A DNA stretch of 43,310 nt, taken from positions 1 through 43,310 of IMG/VR virus record IMGVR_UViG_3300045120_000521; one strand, given 5' to 3'. The notes under the pieces are model-generated. The model saw only the letters and a list, made by a program, of their open reading frames with translations, was not told where the DNA came from and made no database searches. Origin of the DNA: a virus. Position numbers and translations under genes: made by a program. Shown one piece after another: positions 8,117 to 43,310 of the stretch (within the stretch, counting starts at the first letter, position 1; each line of letters starts with the position of its first letter).

Positions 8117-8820
8117 CACGGCCTCGCATTCGGGGAGTGGGCCTTCTCGACCTGGATCTTGAGACCGATCGCCGTGGCGAACTGCTGATAGTGTACGGCG
8201 GCGCGGCCTGCCTGGCCGTCAAGGTCGTCCTTCAACTGGCAGCGATACAGAACGTAGTCCAGCAGCGGCACCGAGTATGGCTCAGGCAGGCCGACGTCGA
8301 TGGCGTAGCTGTCGATGGCGGCAGGGCTGTCGGTGGGGTCGATGACGATCGGCGGCGGCAGCGTCGCCAGCTCGGCCTCGACCATGCCGGTGCCGTCATT
8401 GCCGGGGTAGACGTAGTATTGCAACGGCACCAGCTCGTCGTAGCAGTAATTGCGCACCTCCTTGCGGAACTGCACGCGGCCGCGGTTGTGCCAGTCGGGC
8501 TCGGTCGCATCGAGGACGGCGCGATCGGTGCGCTTGATCATGCGGCCGCCCTTACGCGGCTCGGCGGCGTCGAGGATGTTGCGGTTGAGGCCGAGCAGCG
8601 ACAGCGGCTTGGCCAGGGCGCCGTTCACCGGCACGTTTTGCAACGTGCCGACCTGCAGGTTGAGCACCCGGGTGGTGGAAGACGCCGAAGGTTTGCCGAG
8701 ACAGGTGGCGCGAACGCCCTCGTTCAGCCAGTCGCACATCTCCGCGAGCGGCCAGCGGACGTGATCCACGTCATTGAGCAGGATCGCAGCGCGGGAAAGG
8801 ATCTCGCTTCCGGTCGGCAT
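8116..8820 (-). CDS. Head-tail adaptor-like protein, copy 2
   Basis: A 234-aa protein with an N-terminal helix pair of the type seen in podovirus adaptor proteins: SEILSRAAILLNDVDHVRWP followed by LAEMCDWLNEGVRATCLGKP. The middle part carries WHNRGRVQFRKEVRNYCYDE and PLQYYVYPG, the last third PEPYSVPLLDYVLYRCQLKD then DLDGQAGRAAVHYQQF, a pattern found in the short 'RAA.LL.D....RW...EL..W.N.....' phage proteins. With its neighbour it probably builds the ring between portal and tail. It overlaps the next gene by TGATG. Confidence 0.65.
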   Translation of the reverse strand: MPTGSEILSRAAILLNDVDHVRWPLAEMCDWLNEGVRATCLGKPSASSTTRVLNLQVGTLQNVPVNGALAKPLSLLGLNRNILDAAEPRKGGRMIKRTDRAVLDATEPDWHNRGRVQFRKEVRNYCYDELVPLQYYVYPGNDGTGMVEAELATLPPPIVIDPTDSPAAIDSYAIDVGLPEPYSVPLLDYVLYRCQLKDDLDGQAGRAAVHYQQFATAIGLKIQVEKAHSPNARP

Positions 8821-8824
8821 CCAC

Positions 8825-9493
8825 TCATCCGATCAGGGCCTTGGCCTGGCCGATCCAGTCGTCGCGCAGGATGCGGCCGCTCAGACCGAGCTTGTCGTCG
8901 ACAGCCTGCGCCTCCGCGTCAGTCCACGCGGCGATCTGGCGGCAGTCGGTGATGCCGACGCTCTCCAGCTTGGCGGCCGTGGTGGCGCCGACGCCGCCGA
9001 TCTCGGTAACCGGGATCGGATCGGGGCGATCAGTGGTCGCCGAGGCCTGCGTAGCGCCCGCCGGATCGGTGAAGGTGAAATCGAGCGAATCGGTCTTGGC
9101 CATATCGCCGTTCATCACCAGCACCGGAAGCGTGACGGCGCCCCAGCCGAGCGACGGCTTGACGACGGTCGTCACCTCCTCGCTGGAGACGTAGACGATC
9201 GGCTCCTGATTTTCGCCGAAGACGATCACCGCGTCGCGGGCGAAGCCGGTGCCGAGGCAACGCAGCGTCAGGTCCGGGTCGCCGAGCACGGCGGTCGTTG
9301 GCTCGATCGAGGTCAGCACCAGCGGCTGCGGATCCTTGTCGACCACCCGGTAGTGGACGACGCTAAGCAACACGTTGAGATGCTTGGGGTCCCACACTTC
9401 GACGACATAGCGACCATGTTCGTCCAGCTCGAACGAATAGGTGTGGTCGAACACCATGACCTCGACCGGTCCGAGTTTGCTTTGAACGAGCAT
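8825..9493 (-). CDS. Virion protein with Ig-like (IPT/TIG) and C-terminal HhH domains
   Basis: A 222-aa protein with two recognisable parts. Residues ~60-150 look like an IPT/TIG immunoglobulin-like fold (PLVLTSIEPTTAVLGDPDLT, CLGTGFARDAVIVFG). Residues ~163-222 form a helix-hairpin-helix module: IGGVGATTAAKLESVGITDC, RQIAAWTDAEAQAVDDKLGL, SGRILRDDWIGQAKALIG. This second module is nearly the one appended to several alphaproteobacterial proteins (for example at the ends of some NuoE and ribosomal L21 proteins). HhH units usually bind DNA backbones without sequence preference. Its place among head-completion genes suggests a virion surface or internal DNA-contact role; this is inference. Confidence 0.7.
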   Translation of the reverse strand: MLVQSKLGPVEVMVFDHTYSFELDEHGRYVVEVWDPKHLNVLLSVVHYRVVDKDPQPLVLTSIEPTTAVLGDPDLTLRCLGTGFARDAVIVFGENQEPIVYVSSEEVTTVVKPSLGWGAVTLPVLVMNGDMAKTDSLDFTFTDPAGATQASATTDRPDPIPVTEIGGVGATTAAKLESVGITDCRQIAAWTDAEAQAVDDKLGLSGRILRDDWIGQAKALIG

Positions 9494-22171: not shown

Positions 22172-22840
22172 CTAGTCCGGCAGAGCGGCCACGGCTGCAT
22201 CGATCGTCACACGGTCCCAGCTGGTACGATCGGCGACCAAATCGCGCCGCTGGCCAGCGCTGAGCGTACCAAGGCTGGACTCGGCGTCGCGGACAAGCCG
22301 CGCGGCGAGCTCCACCCGGATGCGCTGCGCCAGGGTGACGCAACCGGGATCGCCGTTCGGTTGTTCGGTGAGCAACTCCAACATGCGTTGCAGCCGCGGC
22401 GTGGGCATGCCCACAAGCCCGTTAACGATCGCCACCGGGTGACGCCGCTCACGTTCGAAGTCGGGCCCGGCGTTGAGCACGTAATCGGCCCACGTCTCAG
22501 GTGATTCGCCTACCTGATAGGCGTCGCGTGTTTCGCCCCATAGGGGTTCTGACAGGCCGCGCGCCGCAAACGCCACGATGGCCGCTTGCCACCATGCATC
22601 AAGCGACGTGTTATCCTTGGTCCTGACCATCTGCAGATCGGCAGTGCGCACCTTTTCGAGCCAGCGCATGCCGCGGGTGTTACGGATCTCGCGCAACGTG
22701 CCGCTATCCTGGCCACCCATGTTCAAGCCGTTGTGGCGGTAGCTGAGCCAGGCTGCCTTGAGATAGGCTTTCCACTGGTGGCCATACTTGCCGGCAAAGG
22801 CTGCGAGGGCAGCGCGTTCGGTTTCCGTCATGTCGATCAT
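22172..22840 (-). CDS. Conserved hypothetical early protein
   Basis: A 222-aa protein. The N-terminal half (AALAAFAGKYGHQWKAYLKA, AWLSYRHNGLNMGG, TLREIRNTRGMRWLEKVR) follows a pattern seen in uncharacterised plasmid and phage proteins ('AL..YA..HGR.WK..L...W........LQ..RN..G..WL'). The C-terminus is helical (RIRVELAARLVRDAESSLGT). AAAGGAG stands 9 nt before ATG 22840. It is the last gene of the early-type set, has its own promoter (22889-22917) and ends before the terminator. Confidence 0.7.
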   Translation of the reverse strand: MIDMTETERAALAAFAGKYGHQWKAYLKAAWLSYRHNGLNMGGQDSGTLREIRNTRGMRWLEKVRTADLQMVRTKDNTSLDAWWQAAIVAFAARGLSEPLWGETRDAYQVGESPETWADYVLNAGPDFERERRHPVAIVNGLVGMPTPRLQRMLELLTEQPNGDPGCVTLAQRIRVELAARLVRDAESSLGTLSAGQRRDLVADRTSWDRVTIDAAVAALPD

Positions 22841-22861: not shown

Positions 22862-22884
22862 TCCGGCGGCAAATCGCCGCCGGA
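22862..22884 (-). promoter_or_regulatory. 5' leader hairpin of promoter 1
   Basis: Perfect 9-bp stem TCCGGCGGC / GCCGCCGGA with a 5-nt loop. It begins 5 nt after the -10 box, so it would form the extreme 5' end of the transcript. Same arrangement at two other promoters. Confidence 0.65.
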
Positions 22885-22888
22885 AACG

Positions 22889-22917
22889 TTCATAGACACA
22901 TTTTCACGCCGTGGCAA
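22889..22917 (-). promoter_or_regulatory. Early promoter 1 (for 222-aa gene)
   Basis: TTGCCA (-35, 22917-22912), 17-nt spacer, TATGAA (-10, 22894-22889). The spacer end and -10 read AAATGTGTCTATGAACG, shared with three other promoters of this region. The -35 lies in the end of the upstream gene. Confidence 0.65.
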
Positions 22918-23074
22918 GCGGCGCCTTCCGCCGCTGCTTTTTCAAGCGCCAGGTGAAACCCTGAGCGACTTGCGTGCTGTTTGTGTTGGCTACCACTCGC
23001 CAGACGTGAGTCCGGGAAAACGAGCTCTCGAATAGCGCCCGCTGCACCGCGCCGTGATGGGTCTTGAAAATCAT
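22904..23074 (-). CDS. Small basic hypothetical protein
   Basis: A 56-aa protein (MIFKTHHGAVQRALFESSFS ... WRLKKQRRKAPLATA). ATG 23074 overlaps the stop of the preceding gene (ATGA). Beta-prone centre (VWRVVANTNS) and a very basic C-terminus. No family recognised; the size, charge and place in an early-type operon are like host-takeover genes. Confidence 0.6.
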   Translation of the reverse strand: MIFKTHHGAVQRALFESSFSRTHVWRVVANTNSTQVAQGFTWRLKKQRRKAPLATA

Positions 23075-23886
23075 GCTGCAAGCCTTTCCTGCTCGAAGTG
23101 AACGGCGGTTGATCCATGGGCAATGATCACCATGGAAACACGGGCCTTTGCCGATAAGCCGCCGCATGCGCTGCACGCCGCGCAGTCGGTTTTGTGGCCA
23201 GCCTCTGCAGAGGCCGGACAAATCGCCTCTCCGGCCTGCTTAGGCTCCTGCCGGGTGCGAACGCGAAACGTCCTCCACCCCATGGCATGCGCCGCTTCCA
23301 TCTCGGACACGCTATCGACGCTCGCCATGCAAAGCCGGGCGAAGTGCCTGAAACGCTTGTTGCGCCATTGATGCGTGTAACCAGTAATCGCCCGGGCCAG
23401 GAGGGTGGCCGCGCGCCAGACCTGGTACGGCGCCGCGGTAGGATCGCCATACGTGCCACTGCGGAAGGCGAGCCCGGCAAACAGCATCGGCACGATGCGA
23501 GGATCGTAATCGACGCCCGGCCTTGCATAGCGGCCGCGCTGGTACGCCGCATAAACCGACCGAACCGACCGGCCTACGTTCACGTAGCAGGTGCGCACGC
23601 GCTTGCTCTTGCCGGCGCGCCGCTCGCGCCGCGGCCGGTGCTGACAGTCGCCGCAAATGCTGGCATCGGCGCCAGTGTTCAGCGCTGTAACCGGATCAAC
23701 GTCCGAACGGATTACAAAGCTCTGCACCATGGCGCCGGTTTTGCCATTGTCGCTTGCGCTCGTGATCCGGTTGGCAATAACGACGATCGGCGCGCCATCA
23801 AGCGCACTAGGGCCCTCGTAAAGGATCACACCGCACCAAACGCCGCGCCGGAGCGCCGCCAGCATGTCTTGCGCGTTCGTGATCAT
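23071..23886 (-). CDS. DUF7227-like phage protein
   Basis: A 271-aa protein with the pattern of a common phage family of unknown function: VWCGVILYEGPSALDGAPIV, then 'NGKTGAMVQSFVIRSDVDPV', TALNTGADASICGDC (CxxC), a basic stretch, RTCYVNVGRSVRSVYAAYQR, GRYARPG, and later GYTHQWR. The C-terminal part adds ICPASAEAGHKTDCAACSAC, so several Cys/His could bind zinc. The family is widely spread in phage early regions; no biochemical role is known to me. Overlaps neighbours by ATGA at both ends. Confidence 0.75.
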   Translation of the reverse strand: MITNAQDMLAALRRGVWCGVILYEGPSALDGAPIVVIANRITSASDNGKTGAMVQSFVIRSDVDPVTALNTGADASICGDCQHRPRRERRAGKSKRVRTCYVNVGRSVRSVYAAYQRGRYARPGVDYDPRIVPMLFAGLAFRSGTYGDPTAAPYQVWRAATLLARAITGYTHQWRNKRFRHFARLCMASVDSVSEMEAAHAMGWRTFRVRTRQEPKQAGEAICPASAEAGHKTDCAACSACGGLSAKARVSMVIIAHGSTAVHFEQERLAA

Positions 23887-24074
23887 GTGCGCACCCGCCG
23901 GGCTGACAGTTCGGCGTCAATGCGCGCGTGTGCTTCGGCCATCAGCGCTGCGTGATCCAGGCCCCACTTTTCGCAGTAGGCCTGGAAAGCGGCGCCGCTA
24001 TTGATGCGGCCGCCGTCGGCTAGTCGCTCGTAGGCTGCCAAAAGCTTGGCAGTGACTTCGGTAAGCTGGGACAT
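23883..24074 (-). CDS. Small hypothetical protein
   Basis: A 63-aa, mostly helical protein (LTEVTAKLLAAYERLADGGR, CEKWGLDHAALMAEAHARID). GGAGG precedes ATG 24074. First gene after early promoter 3 and its leader hairpin. No family recognised. Confidence 0.65.
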   Translation of the reverse strand: MSQLTEVTAKLLAAYERLADGGRINSGAAFQAYCEKWGLDHAALMAEAHARIDAELSARRVRT

Positions 24075-24095
24075 TTTATGTGCCTCCGTTAACGG

Positions 24096-24125
24096 TTTCA
24101 GGCCGGCGGGTTTGCCGGCCTGAAA
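24096..24125 (-). promoter_or_regulatory. 5' leader hairpin of promoter 3
   Basis: Perfect 12-bp inverted repeat, TTTCAGGCCGGC arm with a 6-nt loop. It starts 4 nt after the -10 box, so the transcript would open with this hairpin (its first bases may lie at or just before the start point). Confidence 0.65.
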
Positions 24126-24128
24126 ATG

Positions 24129-24157
24129 TTACTAGGCACATTTAATCGAAGAGTCGA
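24129..24157 (-). promoter_or_regulatory. Early promoter 3
   Basis: TCGACT (-35, 24157-24152), 17-nt spacer, TAGTAA (-10, 24134-24129). The sequence TTAAATGTGCCTAGTAAC matches the promoter family; AGGACTCGAC upstream is shared with promoter 2. It overlaps the 3' end of the gene before it. Confidence 0.55.
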
Positions 24158-24160
24158 GTC

Positions 24161-24367
24161 CTAATTTTTGGACCGTGTCAGGCAGTACGAGAAACACAAT
24201 CGCCCTACCCAAACGAAGCGCAAGCCGCCGACCTTGCGCGTGCGCACGTTCCAGAACGGCGGCTGCAGGAGCTCGCCGCTATACGGGATCAACGGTACAG
24301 AGCGAGCCGGAGCTATCGGCTCGAAATGCCAATCAATGAGCTCTTCGAACTCAACCACGGTAATCAC
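24161..24367 (-). CDS. Small hypothetical protein
   Basis: A 68-aa protein from GTG 24367 (GTGA with the previous stop). Acidic N-terminus (VVEFEELIDWHFEPIAPARS) and a basic, aromatic C-terminus (GGLRFVWVGRLCFSYCLTRS). Its TAG stop lies in the upstream part of promoter 3. No family recognised. Confidence 0.6.
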   Translation of the reverse strand: MITVVEFEELIDWHFEPIAPARSVPLIPYSGELLQPPFWNVRTRKVGGLRFVWVGRLCFSYCLTRSKN

Positions 24368-24690
24368 CTCTTGGCCCGCTTTGCGGCGGTGTAGGCGATC
24401 CCGTCGGCGAACAGGACGAGCTGGGTAACGTTCACGCTGCCGCTCACGACGTACTTGCGGCGCCCGACACGCAGGACACAACCGGCGCAATAGCCGCTGG
24501 CCGTGGTAATCAGTTCGATAGTCACTTCGGCCGCAGGAAAGCGGCCGCGCAGATAGGTGAGAGCGTCGGAGTAGTCACGCACGCTCAACGCCTCCCAGCG
24601 AGCAGGATCGATCGCCGTGTAACCGGACGCGTCTGGCCGGTTGTTGCCGGCCAGCCAGTTGAGCAGGGACTTGCTGGGATTGCGCGTCAC
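24364..24690 (-). CDS. Small hypothetical protein
   Basis: A 108-aa protein from GTG 24690 (GTGA overlap). Segments: NPSKSLLNWLAGNNRP, a helical ARWEALSVRDYSDALTYLRG, then a beta-rich half with SGYCAGCVLRVGRRKYVVSG (CxxC). No recognised family. Confidence 0.6.
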   Translation of the reverse strand: MTRNPSKSLLNWLAGNNRPDASGYTAIDPARWEALSVRDYSDALTYLRGRFPAAEVTIELITTASGYCAGCVLRVGRRKYVVSGSVNVTQLVLFADGIAYTAAKRAKR

Positions 24691-24914
24691 GACAGCACCT
24701 CGCAAGTGCTGTCCTGGATCTCGATGCCGTCAATGTTGCTGCCGGGATCGATGAGGAAGCGCAGGGACTTCTCAATGCCCTCATCGCCGACGAGCTCGGC
24801 CTTGGCATCGGCCTCGGAGAGCAACGCCTCTTCGATCAGGTAGCGCACGCCGGCGGCGCGCACTGCCTCGGGGTCGAGCACTTCCAGGAACACGGTCACG
24901 CTGTAATGGGACAT
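24687..24914 (-). CDS. Small acidic hypothetical protein
   Basis: A 75-aa acidic protein (MSHYSVTVFLEVLDPEAVRA, YLIEEALLSEADAKAELVGD). AGAGG is 8 nt before ATG 24914. First gene after early promoter 2. Alpha/beta character with a ferredoxin-like strand-helix start; no known family. Confidence 0.65.
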   Translation of the reverse strand: MSHYSVTVFLEVLDPEAVRAAGVRYLIEEALLSEADAKAELVGDEGIEKSLRFLIDPGSNIDGIEIQDSTCEVLS

Positions 24915-24929
24915 TTTCGCTACCTCTCT

Positions 24930-24950
24930 GCGGAACCGGGGATCGGCCGC
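24930..24950 (-). promoter_or_regulatory. 5' leader hairpin of promoter 2
   Basis: GCGG/CCGC outer stem plus CCG/CGG inner stem (with a 2-nt bulge) around a 5-nt loop, about 9 nt after the -10 box. Weaker than the hairpins of promoters 1 and 3. Confidence 0.45.
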
Positions 24951-24958
24951 CAAAAACG

Positions 24959-24987
24959 TTCATAGACACATTTAACCGGAACGTCGA
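24959..24987 (-). promoter_or_regulatory. Early promoter 2
   Basis: TCGACG (-35, 24987-24982), 17-nt spacer, TATGAA (-10, 24964-24959). TTAAATGTGTCTATGAACG is the best match to the shared consensus of the four promoters. Located between the genes starting at 24914 and ending at 24991. Confidence 0.65.
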
Positions 24988-24990
24988 GTC

Positions 24991-25245
24991 CTATTTGCCG
25001 GGCTCGATGTCGCCAAAAACGCGCTCCCAGACATCGGCGCCGGTCGCATCGCGCACCAAATAGACATCGGGGTCGTAGGCGTCGGTGCCGCCCACCCAGA
25101 CCGCCGTGTGCGCCTCGCGCAAGGCGATGTCGCGCGCCTGTTCGGGCGTTTCCGCCTCGACCTCCATGCGGGCGAGGTTCTCGACATACTGCTGCAGCAG
25201 CACGGTGTATTTGAACACCGTCCGTCCGGTCGGTTGGTCAGACAT
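24991..25245 (-). CDS. Small hypothetical protein
   Basis: An 84-aa protein. FKYTVLLQQYVENLARMEVE then AETPEQARDIALREAHTAVW suggests a strand-helix domain of the kind that reads 'Y.V.L.....A.VEVEAE....A...A'. AAGGAG precedes ATG 25245. Function unknown. Confidence 0.65.
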   Translation of the reverse strand: MSDQPTGRTVFKYTVLLQQYVENLARMEVEAETPEQARDIALREAHTAVWVGGTDAYDPDVYLVRDATGADVWERVFGDIEPGK

Positions 25246-25408
25246 TCGTTTTCTCCTTGGGTTCGGGCGCTTTGCCCGGGTTGACGATGTTGTGGGCGCT
25301 GACGATGTCCTGAGCGGTCAGCCAATCCAGGTAACCGGTGATCGGCCGCCCCTCGGCGTCGAGGATTCGCGCCTCGCGCCGGTTGGCAAATTCTAGCCGC
25401 CAGCTCAT
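25238..25408 (-). CDS. Small hypothetical protein
   Basis: A 56-aa protein (MSWRLEFANRREARILDAEG ... QDIVSAHNIVNPGKAPEPK). ATG 25408 overlaps the preceding stop (ATGA), and its end overlaps the next start by 8 nt, supplying that gene's AAGGAG. No family recognised. Confidence 0.6.
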   Translation of the reverse strand: MSWRLEFANRREARILDAEGRPITGYLDWLTAQDIVSAHNIVNPGKAPEPKEKTNV

Positions 25409-25599
25409 GGCCGGCCGCTGTCGATGAACGGCGTCTGCGGTTCGAAGATGCAGACGAGGTCGCCGCCGACAAAGTCGGGCAGCCGCTGCACGGCGAGCGT
25501 GCCCATGGCGCAGTCGTCCTCGGCGAGGACCGGCCGCACGTGGCTGACGGCGAACATGGCGAGGCAGGTGACGAGCGCGAGGCTGAGAACTCTGGTCAT
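25405..25599 (-). CDS. Small predicted exported protein
   Basis: A 64-aa protein with a clear signal peptide: MTRV, hydrophobic LSLALVTCLAMFAV, then VRPVLA before EDDC. Cleavage after the alanine would leave ~38 residues with two cysteines (DDC, LVC) able to form a disulphide. It follows its upstream stop by 1 nt (TGACATG). An envelope-acting early phage peptide, such as a superinfection-exclusion factor, is possible but unproven. Confidence 0.6.
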   Translation of the reverse strand: MTRVLSLALVTCLAMFAVSHVRPVLAEDDCAMGTLAVQRLPDFVGGDLVCIFEPQTPFIDSGRP

Positions 25600-25600
25600 G

Positions 25601-25885
25601 TCAGAGTCCCCCGCGCTCGATCGTCAGCGCCATCTCGGTGACCTCGGCCTCGAACCGGCGCAACCAGGCCTGGCGTTCGCGCCACGCCTCTGCCGCCTTT
25701 TCGCGTGCGAGGCCCGCCACCACCGTGGGCAGGGTCTGGAAATTACGGCCGTGCACCAGATCGCTGGCGTTGCGGATCGCGTCGCGCAGCTCACGGGCGG
25801 CGTCGAGGATCTGCCGGCACTGCTGCACCAGGCTGTCGGCGGAATTGCCGTTGAGATTGGGGATAGGGGCGATCAGTGGCTGCAT
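25601..25885 (-). CDS. Small coiled-coil-like hypothetical protein
   Basis: A 94-aa protein starting at ATG 25885 with AAGGAGG 7 nt upstream. Mostly helical (CRQILDAARELRDAIRNASD, LAREKAAEAWRERQAWLRRF, EAEVTEMALTIE). First gene after early promoter 4. No family recognised. Confidence 0.65.
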   Translation of the reverse strand: MQPLIAPIPNLNGNSADSLVQQCRQILDAARELRDAIRNASDLVHGRNFQTLPTVVAGLAREKAAEAWRERQAWLRRFEAEVTEMALTIERGGL

Positions 25886-25920
25886 GGGTGGCCCTCCTTG
25901 GCGCACACGAACGATAAATG

Positions 25921-25951
25921 TTCATATGCACATTTAATTGAGGGCTGTCAA
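25921..25951 (-). promoter_or_regulatory. Early promoter 4
   Basis: TTGACA (-35, 25951-25946), 19-nt spacer, TATGAA (-10, 25926-25921), with TTAAATGTGCATATGAACA as in the family. The spacer is 2 nt longer than in the other copies and no strong leader hairpin follows. The -35 spans the stop codon of the 91-aa gene. Confidence 0.6.
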
Positions 25952-26223: not shown

Positions 26224-26489
26224 GGGTTTCCTCCTGGTTTCGGTAGGCGGGGCGTAGGCGTGGATAGGCGGGGTGCGCGAGCGCTAGAAGTGCCATTTGT
26301 CCCCCTGTCCCCCGACTCGCGCGCGCGTACACAAGAGGCTATAGAATGAATCATATATATACCCCCTCACATACATACATATTTGGGGGACAGGGGGACA
26401 ATATATGGATTTATGTAACGACACCAACGACTTACGATTTTGACACCCAATCAAAAGTGGGTGCCATGTGGGTGCCGGGGTGCCAAGTT
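26224..26489. other. Repeat-rich, AT-rich gap: candidate replication origin
   Basis: 266 bp without a gene. It holds three adjacent 10-11 bp iterons TAGGCGGGGCG / TAGGCGTGGA / TAGGCGGGGTG (26244-26275); a 17-bp inverted repeat with arms 26297-26313 and 26385-26401 (TTGTCCCCCTGTCCCCC and its complement) around 71 nt; an AT-rich core with ATATATA and ATACATACAT (26340-26384); and a CACCCA...TGGGTG hairpin (26453-26472 region). AT-rich DNA is otherwise rare here. Iterons beside an AT-rich tract next to a primase-helicase gene is the usual look of an origin. Confidence 0.55.
26297..26401. repeat. 17-bp inverted repeat flanking AT-rich core
   Basis: Arms 26297-26313 and 26385-26401 are exact reverse complements made of a doubled GGGGGACA unit, so each arm also has a direct repeat inside. 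The spacing (71 bp) is too long for a terminator; a protein-binding or origin role is more likely. Confidence 0.7.
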
Positions 26490-33098: not shown

Positions 33099-33253
33099 CC
33101 CCCGCCGAGAACCTGACCCCGCTGGAGCGCGAGCTCCTGGAGCTGCTCAGGAAGATACGCTCCAACGGCACGCGCCTGCGGTGGGACCTCCGCAAGGAGG
33201 TGCGCGACATCCTCGACCGCGAGGACGCCAAGGCGGCGGAGCTGAAGCCATGA
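33095..33253 (+). CDS. Small charged hypothetical protein
   Basis: A 52-aa ORF (MTPAENLTPLERELLELLRK ... WDLRKEVRDILDREDAKAAE), an amphipathic helical pair, joined by ATGA at both ends. Could be a coiled-coil dimer. No family recognised. Confidence 0.55.
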   Translation: MTPAENLTPLERELLELLRKIRSNGTRLRWDLRKEVRDILDREDAKAAELKP

Positions 33254-33516
33254 GCCCCGTCGAGAACCTCGTCCAGCTGCCGCACCCGCGGCCGCTGGTG
33301 GCACTGATCGACAGCCCTTCGACGATCAAGCTGATCCAGGCCGAGATCCTGCGATCGAAGCTGACCTATACGGCGATCGCGACCAAGGCCGCTCTCGCCA
33401 ACAGCACCGTCGGCAATATCGCGAGCGGCACGACCAAGCTGCCGCGTCTGGAAACGACCATTCGTCTGCTCGGCGCGCTCGGCTGGATTATTCAGGCTCG
33501 GAGGGGCGACCTATGA
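33250..33516 (+). CDS. HTH (XRE/Cro-like) DNA-binding protein
   Basis: An 88-aa protein from ATG 33250 (ATGA). Residues ~38-75 read LTYTAIATKAALANSTVGNI then ASGTTKLPRLETTIRLLGAL, the helix-turn-helix pattern of Cro/C1-type regulators (AxxAxLAxSTVxxIxxGxxxxPxxxTxxxLxxALG). Likely an early repressor or operon regulator. Targets could be the dyads at 21071-21124 or the divergent region; neither is shown. Confidence 0.75.
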   Translation: MSPVENLVQLPHPRPLVALIDSPSTIKLIQAEILRSKLTYTAIATKAALANSTVGNIASGTTKLPRLETTIRLLGALGWIIQARRGDL

Positions 33517-36929: not shown

Positions 36930-37141
36930 CTAAGACGCCAACGAGTGACACGCCCGCTCGCGATGCTCCCGGCGTGCTCAAGGCGCATGCCGTCGGTGCC
37001 GTCGCCTGCGCGGCGTGCGGGGGCATCCACGTCGACTTTGCCGACAAGACGCTGGCCGTCGTCGCCACCGGTTTCCTCTCCTTCGACGACTGGATGACAC
37101 TGGTTACCTGGGTCGATCGCCAGATGGATGAGATCCCATGA
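36926..37141 (+). CDS. Small hypothetical protein
   Basis: A 71-aa protein with CAACGG (CxxC) near residue 28 and a helical acidic end (FDDWMTLVTWVDRQMDE). ATGA overlaps on both sides. No family recognised. Confidence 0.55.
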   Translation: MTKTPTSDTPARDAPGVLKAHAVGAVACAACGGIHVDFADKTLAVVATGFLSFDDWMTLVTWVDRQMDEIP

Positions 37142-37365
37142 GCGTCGCCGTGATCCCACGCTACGAGCGCCTGCCGATGATCCTCAACTGGCTCGGCGAA
37201 GGCCGCGCGCTGATGGCGGTGACGCTGGCGTGGCGGCTCGGCGTCTCGGTGCGCACCGTCTACCGCGACCTCAACGTGCTGCGCGCCACCGGCTACCGCA
37301 TCGATTCGAGCGCCGGCATGGGCGGCGGCATCATGCTGCGCAAGCCACGCAGGGAGGCGGCATGA
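37138..37365 (+). CDS. HTH_11-type DNA-binding protein
   Basis: A 75-aa protein consisting of one winged-helix domain like the N-terminus of DeoR/WYL regulators: RYERLPMILNWLGEGRALMA, VTLAWRLGVSVRTVYRDLNV, LRATGYRIDSSAGMGGGIML. The recognition helix VSVRTVYRDL is the classical HTH_11 signature. It has no effector domain, so it is probably a simple regulator of phage or host promoters. Confidence 0.82.
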   Translation: MSVAVIPRYERLPMILNWLGEGRALMAVTLAWRLGVSVRTVYRDLNVLRATGYRIDSSAGMGGGIMLRKPRREAA

Positions 37366-40110: not shown

Positions 40111-42315
40111 ATGGAACCGCGCGACGAGCGCGCGCCGGGGGCGACCTTCGCCCTCGGCGACGTCGGCTTCGTCGATTTCGAATCGCGTAGCAGCGTGCCG
40201 ATCGCTGCAGGGTCGGATCGCTACGCGCGTTCAGCTCAGGCTTTGCTGCTGAGCTGGGCCATCGGGGACGGGCCAGTCAGCGTCTGGTCCGTCCCTGACT
40301 GGGGCGAAGGCGAGATAGCGCCGACGCTGCGCTGGCACAATGCGCCGATGGAGCTGCTGCGGTTCCTCGACCGCGTCGACCGCGCCGAGGCGGTGCTGTG
40401 CGCTCACAATGCGACCTTCGACCGGACGATCTGGAATCATTCCACCTACGGTTTCCCGCATCTCGAGCCGTGGATGATCATCGACAGCAAGGCGCAGGCG
40501 ATGGCGTCCGGCCTGCCGGCGGCGCTGGAGGGTGCCGCCCGTTCGGTCGGTTCCTCGGTGCAGAAGGACAAGATCGGCAAGGCTATGATCGAGCTGTTCA
40601 CGCTGCCCGATTCGATAGCGACGCCGTTGACCCATCCCGACGAGTGGCAATGGTTCAAGGACTACGCCGCCGACGATGTCGCCGCCATGCGCGAGGTGTT
40701 CCTGCGCACGCGCCAGCTGCCGCTTGCCGAGTGGCGCGAGTACTGGGCGGCCGAGCGTATCAACGATTTGGGTGTGGCGATCGACATAGACCTCGTCGCG
40801 GCGGCGGCGCGCATGGCGCTCGAAGACCAGCGGCTGATGGGCTGGGAGCTCGGACGGCTGACCGGCGGTGTCGTTACCACCGTCAACCAGACGGCGCGCA
40901 TGATCGCCTGGCTGGGCCAGCTGCTGCCCGCCGACGGCCGCGAAATGCTGGTCAAGCGCGAGGAGGAGGTCGACATCGAAACCGGCGAGGTCGTGCGCCC
41001 CGCCAAGGGCTCGCTGACGCGCGATCGCCTCGTCCGGCTCGTTGCCTACCTCGAATCGCTCGAACCGCTCCCAGCGCCCCTGCAGGCGGCGCTGCGGGTA
41101 TTGCAGATCCGCAGGTATGGCGGCTCCAAAACCCCGGCGAAATTTGCCCGCATGATGGACACCCAGGTCGGCGGCGTGCTGCGCGGACAATACGTGTTCA
41201 ACGGCGCCGCGCAGACCGGGAGATTCTCGTCGAAAGGCGTGCAGGTCCATAACCTGGCCCGCGATCCGCTGGACTATGAGATCGACGCCATAGACGCGCT
41301 GGTGGCGGGCACCAACGCCGCGGATTTTGCCCGCCTCGGCGACGACACGCCGATCTCGCGCAAGCTGTCGTTGCTGATTCGCCCCTGTCTTGTTCCCGAG
41401 CTGCCCCACCACGTCTTCGTGTGGGGCGACTGGTCGAACATCGAGGCCAGGCTGGTGCCGTGGCTCAGCGACGACGAGGAGGCCGAGGAGAGGCTCGATA
41501 TTTTCCGCGCCGTCGACGACGGCACCGAGAAATACGACATCTACACGCGCACCGCCGCACGGCTGAGCGGCCTGCCGCTGGAGCAGGTCGACAAGCCGAT
41601 CCGCCAGCGTGGCAAGGTGGTCGAATTGGCGTGCGGCTTCGGCGGTGGCACCAATGCGCTGCTGTCGATGGCTGCCAGCTACGGCATCCACCTGGAGACC
41701 GATGTCGCCAAGGCGTTCGTCGAGCAGTGGCGCAACGAGAACCAGTGGGCGGTGCGCTTCTGGGGCAAACACGACCCGGTGTCGAGTTTCGGCCTGTGGG
41801 GCGCCCTGAACACGGCGATGGAGAACCCCGGTCATCTCTACGAGGTCGGTCGTGTCGCCTACATCTATCTCACCAACTATCTCGGCGGCTCGCTGCTGTG
41901 CCGGCTGCCGAGCGGCCGCTGCCTGACCTATCGCCGCATCCGCTGGGAGTACGTCGACATCCTCGACGACGACGGCGCCCTCGTCGAGGTCAGGCGCGAG
42001 CTGATGTTCTCCCGCAACGAGGGCCGCGTGAAACTGTGGCCCGGCCTGGCCTGTGAGAACATCGTGCAGGGAACCGCCGCCGACCTCATGCGCGGCACGC
42101 TGCTACAGCTCGACGAGGACGGGCAGTACGACGTCCGGTTGCACACCCATGACGAGATCCTCGTCGAGTTGCCGGAGGCCGCCGCCGCGGTCGCCGGACG
42201 CTACCTGCGCGAGGTGATGGAGGCGGGTTTCACGTGGAGCACCGACCTGCCGATCGCCGCCGATACGGTGGTCGGGCGATGGTACACGAAGAGCAAGGGG
42301 TCGATCGGCCTATGA
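40111..42315 (+). CDS. DNA polymerase, family A with 3'-5' exonuclease domain
   Basis: A 734-aa polymerase. ATG 40111 is preferred; GTG 40099 would overlap the previous stop and is possible, and neither has a good ribosome-binding site. Exonuclease domain: VDFES (D22/E24), CAHNATFDR (~94-102), YAADDVAAM (~186). Polymerase domain: motif A WGDWSNIEARL (~438), motif B RQRGKVVELACGFGG (~497-511), a long insert and motif C HTHDEILVE (~676-684). QTGRFSSKGVQVHNLAR before motif A is typical of phage PolA proteins. It replicates the genome with the primase-helicase coded on the other strand. Confidence 0.93.
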   Translation: MEPRDERAPGATFALGDVGFVDFESRSSVPIAAGSDRYARSAQALLLSWAIGDGPVSVWSVPDWGEGEIAPTLRWHNAPMELLRFLDRVDRAEAVLCAHNATFDRTIWNHSTYGFPHLEPWMIIDSKAQAMASGLPAALEGAARSVGSSVQKDKIGKAMIELFTLPDSIATPLTHPDEWQWFKDYAADDVAAMREVFLRTRQLPLAEWREYWAAERINDLGVAIDIDLVAAAARMALEDQRLMGWELGRLTGGVVTTVNQTARMIAWLGQLLPADGREMLVKREEEVDIETGEVVRPAKGSLTRDRLVRLVAYLESLEPLPAPLQAALRVLQIRRYGGSKTPAKFARMMDTQVGGVLRGQYVFNGAAQTGRFSSKGVQVHNLARDPLDYEIDAIDALVAGTNAADFARLGDDTPISRKLSLLIRPCLVPELPHHVFVWGDWSNIEARLVPWLSDDEEAEERLDIFRAVDDGTEKYDIYTRTAARLSGLPLEQVDKPIRQRGKVVELACGFGGGTNALLSMAASYGIHLETDVAKAFVEQWRNENQWAVRFWGKHDPVSSFGLWGALNTAMENPGHLYEVGRVAYIYLTNYLGGSLLCRLPSGRCLTYRRIRWEYVDILDDDGALVEVRRELMFSRNEGRVKLWPGLACENIVQGTAADLMRGTLLQLDEDGQYDVRLHTHDEILVELPEAAAAVAGRYLREVMEAGFTWSTDLPIAADTVVGRWYTKSKGSIGL

Positions 42316-43259
42316 CCGTGTACGACTACCTTGGCGGCAAAATGGCCGAGAGACTGCTCCTTGAGATACTCGACCATCTCGCCGACCGGCCGCTGAAGAC
42401 TGCCAGCGTCTTCCGCAACGCCGTGGTCGGCGATGCTTCCATCGTCGCCGTCAACCCGATGCTGGTGATCAGCAAGCTTGCCGAGACGGCGCTGCACACC
42501 ATGGTTGCCGATATCCAAGACACGGTGCGCGAGGGCCGCATGATCGATTTCGGGCGCGTCCCCAACGCCGTGATCAAGGCCGAATCGACCCGCTCGCGTG
42601 AGATGTTCGAGGCCGGCGAGCTATTGCACCCCTACCCGGAGGGTTGGCTCGGCGTCACCTGGTGGGAGGGTGGCTGCAACGGTTACTACGTGCGGCCGTC
42701 GTCGCGCGGGCCGGGTGATGTCATGGTCGCCGAGCTGTACGGCGTCGCCACGTCGGTCGGCGATGCCGTCATGCTTTACGACACCGTGCACGTTCAAGTG
42801 CACGGGATCGGCGACACCAAGGTGACCCCGGCGCCGATGCACATGTCGCAGGGGTGGAACGGTGATGAAAAGAAGTTCGTCATAGGGCGCGCGGCCAACT
42901 CCCTCGACCCGCTGGTGACGATGCTCAGGCTGCTGGCCGACGCCTCGGTTCCGGTCGAGCGCGTCGTTGCACCGGAGAAGCTCAACCGGGCGCGGGTCAA
43001 GGCCGGCAAGTCGCCGATCCCCGATCACAGCGTCGTGCATGCGCACGATTACATCAGCCAGCTCACGGCGCACGCCAGCCGCCGCACTGCCGGCGACGGC
43101 ACTGGCCGCCACGCCTCGCCGGTCGCCCACTGGCGGCGCTCGCACCAGCGCCACCTCAGTAGCGGCCGCGTGGTTCAGGTCAGGTCAAGCAAGGTCAACT
43201 GGCGCGATCACGCGGAGATCCACCGGCTGTTCAGCCGGGTTGAAGGGGTGAAGGGGTGA
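42312..43259 (+). CDS. Conserved phage protein of unknown function
   Basis: A 315-aa protein from ATG 42312 (ATGA with polymerase stop). An acidic helical start, PYPEGWLGVTWWEGGCNGYY in the middle, then beta-rich PAPMHMSQG and a C-terminus ASPVAHWRRSHQRHLSSGRV, VQVRSSKVNWRD. The 'H.VRGHWR....G...WV..H.RG' type ending is common in phage proteins near replication genes. No enzyme motif seen. Confidence 0.65.
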   Translation: MTVYDYLGGKMAERLLLEILDHLADRPLKTASVFRNAVVGDASIVAVNPMLVISKLAETALHTMVADIQDTVREGRMIDFGRVPNAVIKAESTRSREMFEAGELLHPYPEGWLGVTWWEGGCNGYYVRPSSRGPGDVMVAELYGVATSVGDAVMLYDTVHVQVHGIGDTKVTPAPMHMSQGWNGDEKKFVIGRAANSLDPLVTMLRLLADASVPVERVVAPEKLNRARVKAGKSPIPDHSVVHAHDYISQLTAHASRRTAGDGTGRHASPVAHWRRSHQRHLSSGRVVQVRSSKVNWRDHAEIHRLFSRVEGVKG

Positions 43260-43310
43260 AGATGCGAAAGAAATCCGAGCTGCGCAGCTATCAGCAGCGC
43301 GTCATCAAGC
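43256..43310 (+). CDS. SF2-type helicase, N-terminus only
   Basis: GTG 43256 (GTGA overlap) or ATG 43262 opens a frame that runs off the window. MRKKSELRSYQQRVIK has the LRxYQxxVI motif that opens phage SNF2/DEAD-type helicases. The call rests on 16 residues and the position after PolA. Confidence 0.5.
   Translation, partial: MKMRKKSELRSYQQRVIK

Follow-up and report, generated by a model that had tools for sequence, protein, structure and literature searches.

The 43,310-base virus record IMGVR_UViG_3300045120_000521 of IMG/VR was analysed over its whole length (hereafter the window) for a group of four related promoters on the minus strand, which were named sites A to D from the lowest to the highest coordinates. 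Each site is likely, as judged from its letters, to be a sigma70-type promoter overlaid by an operator, and the four are read, with a probability of roughly two thirds, as one regulatory module: an early regulon that would be repressed by a small phage helix-turn-helix (HTH) protein through dispersed symmetric operators, and whose mRNAs would be protected by hairpins. The original prediction, of four conserved early promoters with a hairpin at the 5' end of three of their transcripts, was confirmed in part as an observation and supported in part in its interpretation.

The four copies were located on the minus strand as predicted, in the 24-mers 22882-22905 (A), 24122-24145 (B), 24952-24975 (C) and 25914-25937 (D). 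The 20-nt consensus AAATGTGYMTATGAACRTTT gave four minus-strand matches in the window against 0.00 expected from shuffled sequences (site D read on the plus strand gives a fifth match in the table). The motif search of the rest of the record, which had been proposed as a check, returned no further copy in 43,310 bases, and the sites occur solely at promoters. The -35 boxes TTGCCA (22912-22917, A), TCGACT (24152-24157, B), TCGACG (24982-24987, C) and TTGACA (25946-25951, D) match the consensus hexamer at four to six of six positions and, as originally described, stand 17 nt upstream of the -10 box at A, B and C and 19 nt upstream at D, so that all four have sigma70-type spacing. The -10 boxes (22889-22894, 24129-24134, 24959-24964 and 25921-25926, respectively), of the forms TATGAA and TAGTAA, are weak matches; none of the four promoters was detected by a generic sigma70 scan that applied strict rules for the -10 box, which likewise indicates a -10 that is weak by consensus.

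The conserved A-rich stretch before the -10 box had been described as the end of the spacer. The shared block is real, but it is not merely spacer, since the spacer and the -10 box together form a 20-bp inverted repeat, AAATGT-N8-ACRTTT, whose centre falls at the T(-12)/A(-11) step, formed by the opening two bases of the -10 box. The dyad covers 22884-22903 at site A (AAATGTGTCTATGAACGTTT), 24124-24143 at site B (AAATGTGCCTAGTAACATTT), 24954-24973 at site C (AAATGTGTCTATGAACGTTT) and 25916-25935 at site D (AAATGTGCATATGAACATTT), in each case overlapping the -10 box, and is clearest at site D, with 9/10 pairs over 20 bases. Overlap with the -10 box is a usual position for a repressor operator, and the centring of the dyad on it points to repression by occlusion. 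This symmetry had been overlooked in the original prediction, whose suggestion of a regulator binding to the conserved stretch gained support from the relatives described below, as did its promoter call.

A close relative of the window phage was not found in the GenBank phage collection, and no Rfam family match was found for the window. TerL and the portal protein share about 50% identity with their counterparts in phages of Ochrobactrum, Sinorhizobium and Agrobacterium. IMG/VR contained a near-identical fragment (L006) without the promoter region, together with four closer relatives (L007 to L010, all environmental phages) with TerL 78-82% identical; relatives were not found with the primase as the query. 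The L008 phage is represented by record G001 (65,514 bases). The set of 12 sites from five phages, used below, consisted of the four window sites, three each from L008 and L009 and one each from L007 and L010. Lack of conservation of the motif in relatives had been named as an outcome that would speak against the prediction. The motif is kept in L008 and L009, each of which has three copies with ATATGT-type arms in the corresponding genome region; L007 and L010 are without the ATATGT-type sequence, and in each a single promoter carries GTGG/CCAC or ATGTGG/CCACAT arms, with the centre unchanged. The layout of -35 box, dyad on the -10 box and hairpin is retained in both of the latter.

With a matrix built from the window sites only, the L008 sites scored 25.9, 20.4 and 16.2 and the L009 sites 28.3, 22.9 and 18.3, in both cases ranking 1-3 in the locus; the best score in shuffled L008 sequence was 18.0 (mean of maxima 11.3), and the L008 site at 16.2 is thus within the shuffled range. 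Dyad pairing over the 12 sites was 0.62 at the -12/-11 centre versus 0.15-0.44 at every other centre within 12 nt. The pair at positions 7 and 16 is T-A in eight sites, G-C in two and C-G in one, and that at positions 4 and 19 is A-T in seven and G-C in two; such matched changes on both arms are expected of a symmetric dimer site.

Several other matches were set aside. The exact-pattern scan of IMG/VR matched L005 only, which has Firmicutes-like coding sequence and was judged a chance match, and the gapped -35/motif scan returned L108 and L110, also by chance, besides the known L008 contig. Control by CcrM/GcrA through GANTC near two of the -35 boxes was considered and set aside, as the placement of GANTC is inconsistent across the copies. 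As a separate observation, GANTC is 2-4 fold depleted genome-wide in the window and in L007 to L010, as would suit hosts that have a CcrM-type methylase. In the L010 and L007 phages (L010:955-1000, L025:9450-9510), the leftward nuclease/helicase promoter carries TATAGATGCACTATGACACACAYGTCAA, which shares the centre CACTATGA with the operator of these two phages and is possibly a further member of the regulon.

For the hairpins, +1 was predicted at position 23 of the 24-mer with the -10 box as drawn, and the placement statistics assume this +1. Three of the four window transcripts had been expected to begin with a hairpin. This holds convincingly for transcripts A (22863-22883, fair, z -1.9) and B (24098-24123, strong, z -4.0, 0/200 shuffles); the weak hairpin after promoter C (24930-24951, z +0.9) is no better than shuffles, and site D (25914) has none above shuffles, as had been claimed. 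Three is therefore an overestimate for the window and close to the proportion in the clade, as the first paired base of a stable GC stem falls at 24-mer position 22-24 in 9/12 sites, which strengthens the idea of a 5'-terminal hairpin. The combined P for a hairpin at +1 was about 2e-8 (12 sites versus 4000 random 36-nt windows from the same loci), a value that is overstated because the sites come from related phages and are compared with random windows; L009c alone gave P = 0.05. Mean fold energy in 26-nt windows over the 12 sites peaked at -13.4 kcal/mol just past +1 and was -1.7 to -7.7 kcal/mol beyond the hairpin. The stem sequences are unrelated among the 12 sites, which means that structure is kept and not sequence. 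The terminator scan listed none of the window +1 hairpins, which are followed by no U run; at L009a a U run lies four bases past the stem. An N4-type single-stranded DNA hairpin promoter was rejected, since no N4-type virion polymerase was seen in the genes examined and the promoters have normal -35 boxes.

Hairpins at the 5' end impede RppH and can stabilise mRNA in E. coli, with the ompA, papA and bla stem-loops as examples (review PMC3997798). The hairpins described here resemble these in occupying the extreme 5' end, where few nucleotides or none are left unpaired, and differ in being predicted from sequence alone. They could tentatively be assigned another role, as an antitermination or pausing RNA like put of HK022, as a protein-binding RNA or as insulation of the ribosome-binding site (RBS), given that their position is fixed whatever their sequence and that one read-through block is common to the four promoters. 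Unrelated stems nevertheless fit a purely structural role such as end protection, and put RNA is a larger, sequence-specific structure.

The L008 phage holds a candidate repressor gene. The window is a fragment: its last gene (42234-43259) is 54% identical to G001 8505-9482, and G001 continues the window gene order past the window end. About 4 kb past the homolog of that gene, a fourth operator of the L008 phage is present (L022:13271-13294, with TTGACA 17 nt before TAGGAA), between a divergent gene for a 98-aa HTH_3 protein (Cro/CI-type) and a DNA methyltransferase gene. Divergent orientation of an HTH gene next to an operator copy is the textbook arrangement for an autoregulated repressor. 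The HTH_3 domain was detected with E 2e-4, just below the curated cut-off, as the sole HTH_3 hit in G001, and the AlphaFold model of the protein alone was too weak to use (mean predicted local distance difference test score, pLDDT, 64.5). The likeliest candidate for the repressor of the window phage is the counterpart of this 98-aa protein, an assignment held at about even odds; the candidate gene with its adjoining operator is present in the L008 phage, and the corresponding locus of the window phage would lie about 4 kb past the record end. The L010 record ends just short of the HTH_3 locus. In a more distant phage (L118/G011), the SNF2 gene is followed in that slot by an 85-aa P22_Cro-like gene; a GGTCA-N3-TGACC dyad is found beside the latter and at two other places, a parallel to the HTH_3 locus that is suggestive only. 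The L008 relative as a whole runs more than 20 kb past the homolog of window 42234-43310, with ParB-like genes, an SNF2 helicase, the HTH_3 gene and a methyltransferase, and the window record is without these.

Several points weigh against a repressed regulon of this kind. Symmetry breaks down consistently at dyad positions 8 and 15; a good -35 box at normal spacing is missing from L008a and L008b, and the -35 box of L009a is just 13 nt away; two of the four window sites lack a convincing hairpin, in addition to the overstatement of the hairpin P. The window record holds no HTH_3 gene of its own, and it does encode a 75-aa HTH_11/DeoR-like protein (37138-37365, plus strand; HTH_11 E = 1e-10). 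The L008 phage, whose operator is of the same type as that of the window, encodes a 68% homolog, and none was found in the L007 and L010 records (neighbouring genes covered), whose operator differs. This protein might be the regulator instead of the HTH_3 protein, with the promoter-operator picture otherwise unchanged, and the half-site ATGTTC, which resembles GlpR-type operators of the DeoR family, was counted in its favour. Such a regulator is nonetheless considered unlikely: no operator copy stands beside the HTH_11 gene, whereas the HTH_3 gene has one, and the correlation between HTH_11 and operator type is drawn from four phages. An 87-aa weak HTH protein (33253-33516, plus strand; phrog_6223, transcriptional repressor), for which no homolog was found in the relatives, is a further rival candidate.

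The block is promoter-like in being highly conserved, in keeping one direction and in being asymmetric at positions 8 and 15, and it could be recognised by a phage-specific sigma factor or activator in place of a repressor. This was judged improbable, as good sigma70 -35 boxes stand 17-19 nt ahead of most copies, the paired arm changes and the centring at -11.5 suit occlusion and not activation, and one operator copy is placed in the gap of a divergent HTH gene. Similarly little weight is given to the copies as recombination cassettes of promoter and stem-loop that shuffle small genes, with regulation secondary, as proposed for the promoter-early stem-loops (PeSLs) of T4-type phages. The copies do lie in a block of small, variable genes, and the genes behind the promoters differ between phages; yet the stems share no sequence, which leaves homology of only about 24 bp, and some promoter-gene pairs are orthologous (site B with L009:744, and L008c with L010). 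The likelihood that the sites resemble each other by chance, or as an AT-rich artefact of a GC-rich genome, is negligible; this reading is suggested by AT-rich islands being common upstream of genes and by the isolated chance matches L005, L108 and L110, and is already refuted by the 0.00 expected in shuffles and by several copies in relatives, always upstream of genes.

The genes behind the promoters all run in one direction, on the minus strand. At the window sites an RBS and a start codon follow within 29-48 nt of the predicted +1 in 4/4 cases, and over the five phages within 19-65 nt in 12/12. The D block begins with a 94-aa gene (25601-25885, no PHROG match) and continues with genes at 25405-25599, 25238-25408 and 24991-25245. 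The C block consists of a 75-aa gene (24687-24914) and two others (about 24364-24690 and about 24161-24361), and the B block includes a 63-aa first gene (23883-24074) and a 271-aa conserved phage protein (23071-23886; phrog_2554, unknown function); a 222-aa gene (22172-22840) lies behind promoter A. Blocks of one to three small genes had been proposed; the actual numbers are about four (D), three (C), three (B) and one (A), and the 271-aa product is not small. The sole strong terminator is the intrinsic one at 22147-22112, which closes the block before the small terminase gene, and since no other precedes it the transcripts from D, C, B and A are probably nested. The phrog_2554 protein contains conserved Cys pairs and is widespread, with matches in at least 594 stretches of IMG/VR and in 148 phage records of GenBank; in its more distant carriers the promoter motif was not found. 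Upstream of the block (window 26290-26400 and L008:3110-3220), an AT-rich stretch with ATGTATGTAT lies between C-rich and G-rich arms (TGTCCCCCTGTC... and ...GGGGGACA), which form a long inverted repeat and are possibly an origin or terminator structure.

The following sequence of events is proposed. Soon after infection, host RNA polymerase would use the sigma70-type promoters D, C, B and A, and the nested small-gene transcripts would end at the terminator 22147-22112. As it accumulates, the phage HTH repressor would bind the dyads as a dimer and exclude polymerase from the -10 box, and occupancy of the dyads would shut the block off or hold it off. The 5'-terminal hairpin, by leaving at most about two unpaired nucleotides, may slow 5'-end-dependent decay and thereby give long-lived early mRNAs. 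A tyrosine integrase was not found in the window, G001, G002 and G003, of which the window and two others are fragments; if the phage is lytic, the repressor would act in a Cro-like way, as an early-gene shut-off. More speculatively, the dyad on the -10 box and the +1 hairpin might form a portable two-layer control cassette across the clade, in which the repressor sets timing, a structure-only RNA cap sets mRNA lifetime, and operator and repressor co-evolve to phage-specific specificities.

Dispersed operators under one repressor are already known, in phiC31 and L5. In Streptomyces phage phiC31, many dispersed symmetric operators at early promoters, the conserved inverted repeats (CIRs), are bound by one c-gene repressor; the present sites are alike in being dispersed symmetric operators, and differ in that the phages and sequences are unrelated and that here the dyad lies on the -10 box, many transcripts are led by hairpins and the repressor is a candidate. 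A further parallel is offered by the anti-CRISPR-associated (Aca) repressors, small HTH proteins that act on inverted repeats to switch off the strong early promoters of small phage genes; Acr or Aca homology was not found here, where no search aimed at it was made. The OL/OR operators of lambda and P22 type are also symmetric and lie over early promoters, but the dyads described here are single and dispersed and not clustered pairs. Paired palindromes of the OL/OR kind were observed elsewhere, at two places upstream of TerL in the more distant TerL relatives L011, L013, L015, L017 and L019, with sequences differing by phage.

The operators and stoperators of mycobacteriophages L5 and L1 are many dispersed 13-bp asymmetric sites for one repressor, not confined to OL/OR and in many cases away from promoters, at which elongation is also stopped (PMC1934351); the window sites are likewise dispersed, but are 20-bp, symmetric and found at promoters only. 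In Cluster K mycobacteriophages, a 13-bp start-codon sequence, the start-associated sequence (SAS), and imperfect 17-bp inverted repeats with a variable spacer, the extended SAS (ESAS), precede a subset of genes (PMC3203893). These are also repeated elements with inverted repeats upstream of some genes, but the centre of the present dyad is a fixed 8 bp, and no shared 13-bp start-codon element was found in the 12 leaders. The T4-type PeSLs (cited in PMC4503421), in which an early promoter is joined to a stem-loop among small genes, go by the name of promoter-terminator motifs in a later paper's title; they share the promoter and stem-loop near small genes, and differ from the window hairpins, which begin at +1, have no U run and were not found by the terminator scan. 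A tested feature separates the present case from each of L5, Cluster K and the T4 cassettes; in the literature searched, no description was found of a symmetric operator centred on the -10 box together with a sequence-free +1 hairpin.

For an uncultured clade of phages with rhizobial podoviruses among its relatives, the analysis supplies a regulon that can be tested, made up of a defined operator, candidate repressors and a list of the genes that they would control. The half-sites altered between close relatives show how operator specificity diverges, and the recurrent operator with its sequence-independent +1 hairpin can serve as a natural experiment on how phage mRNA is protected at its 5' end.

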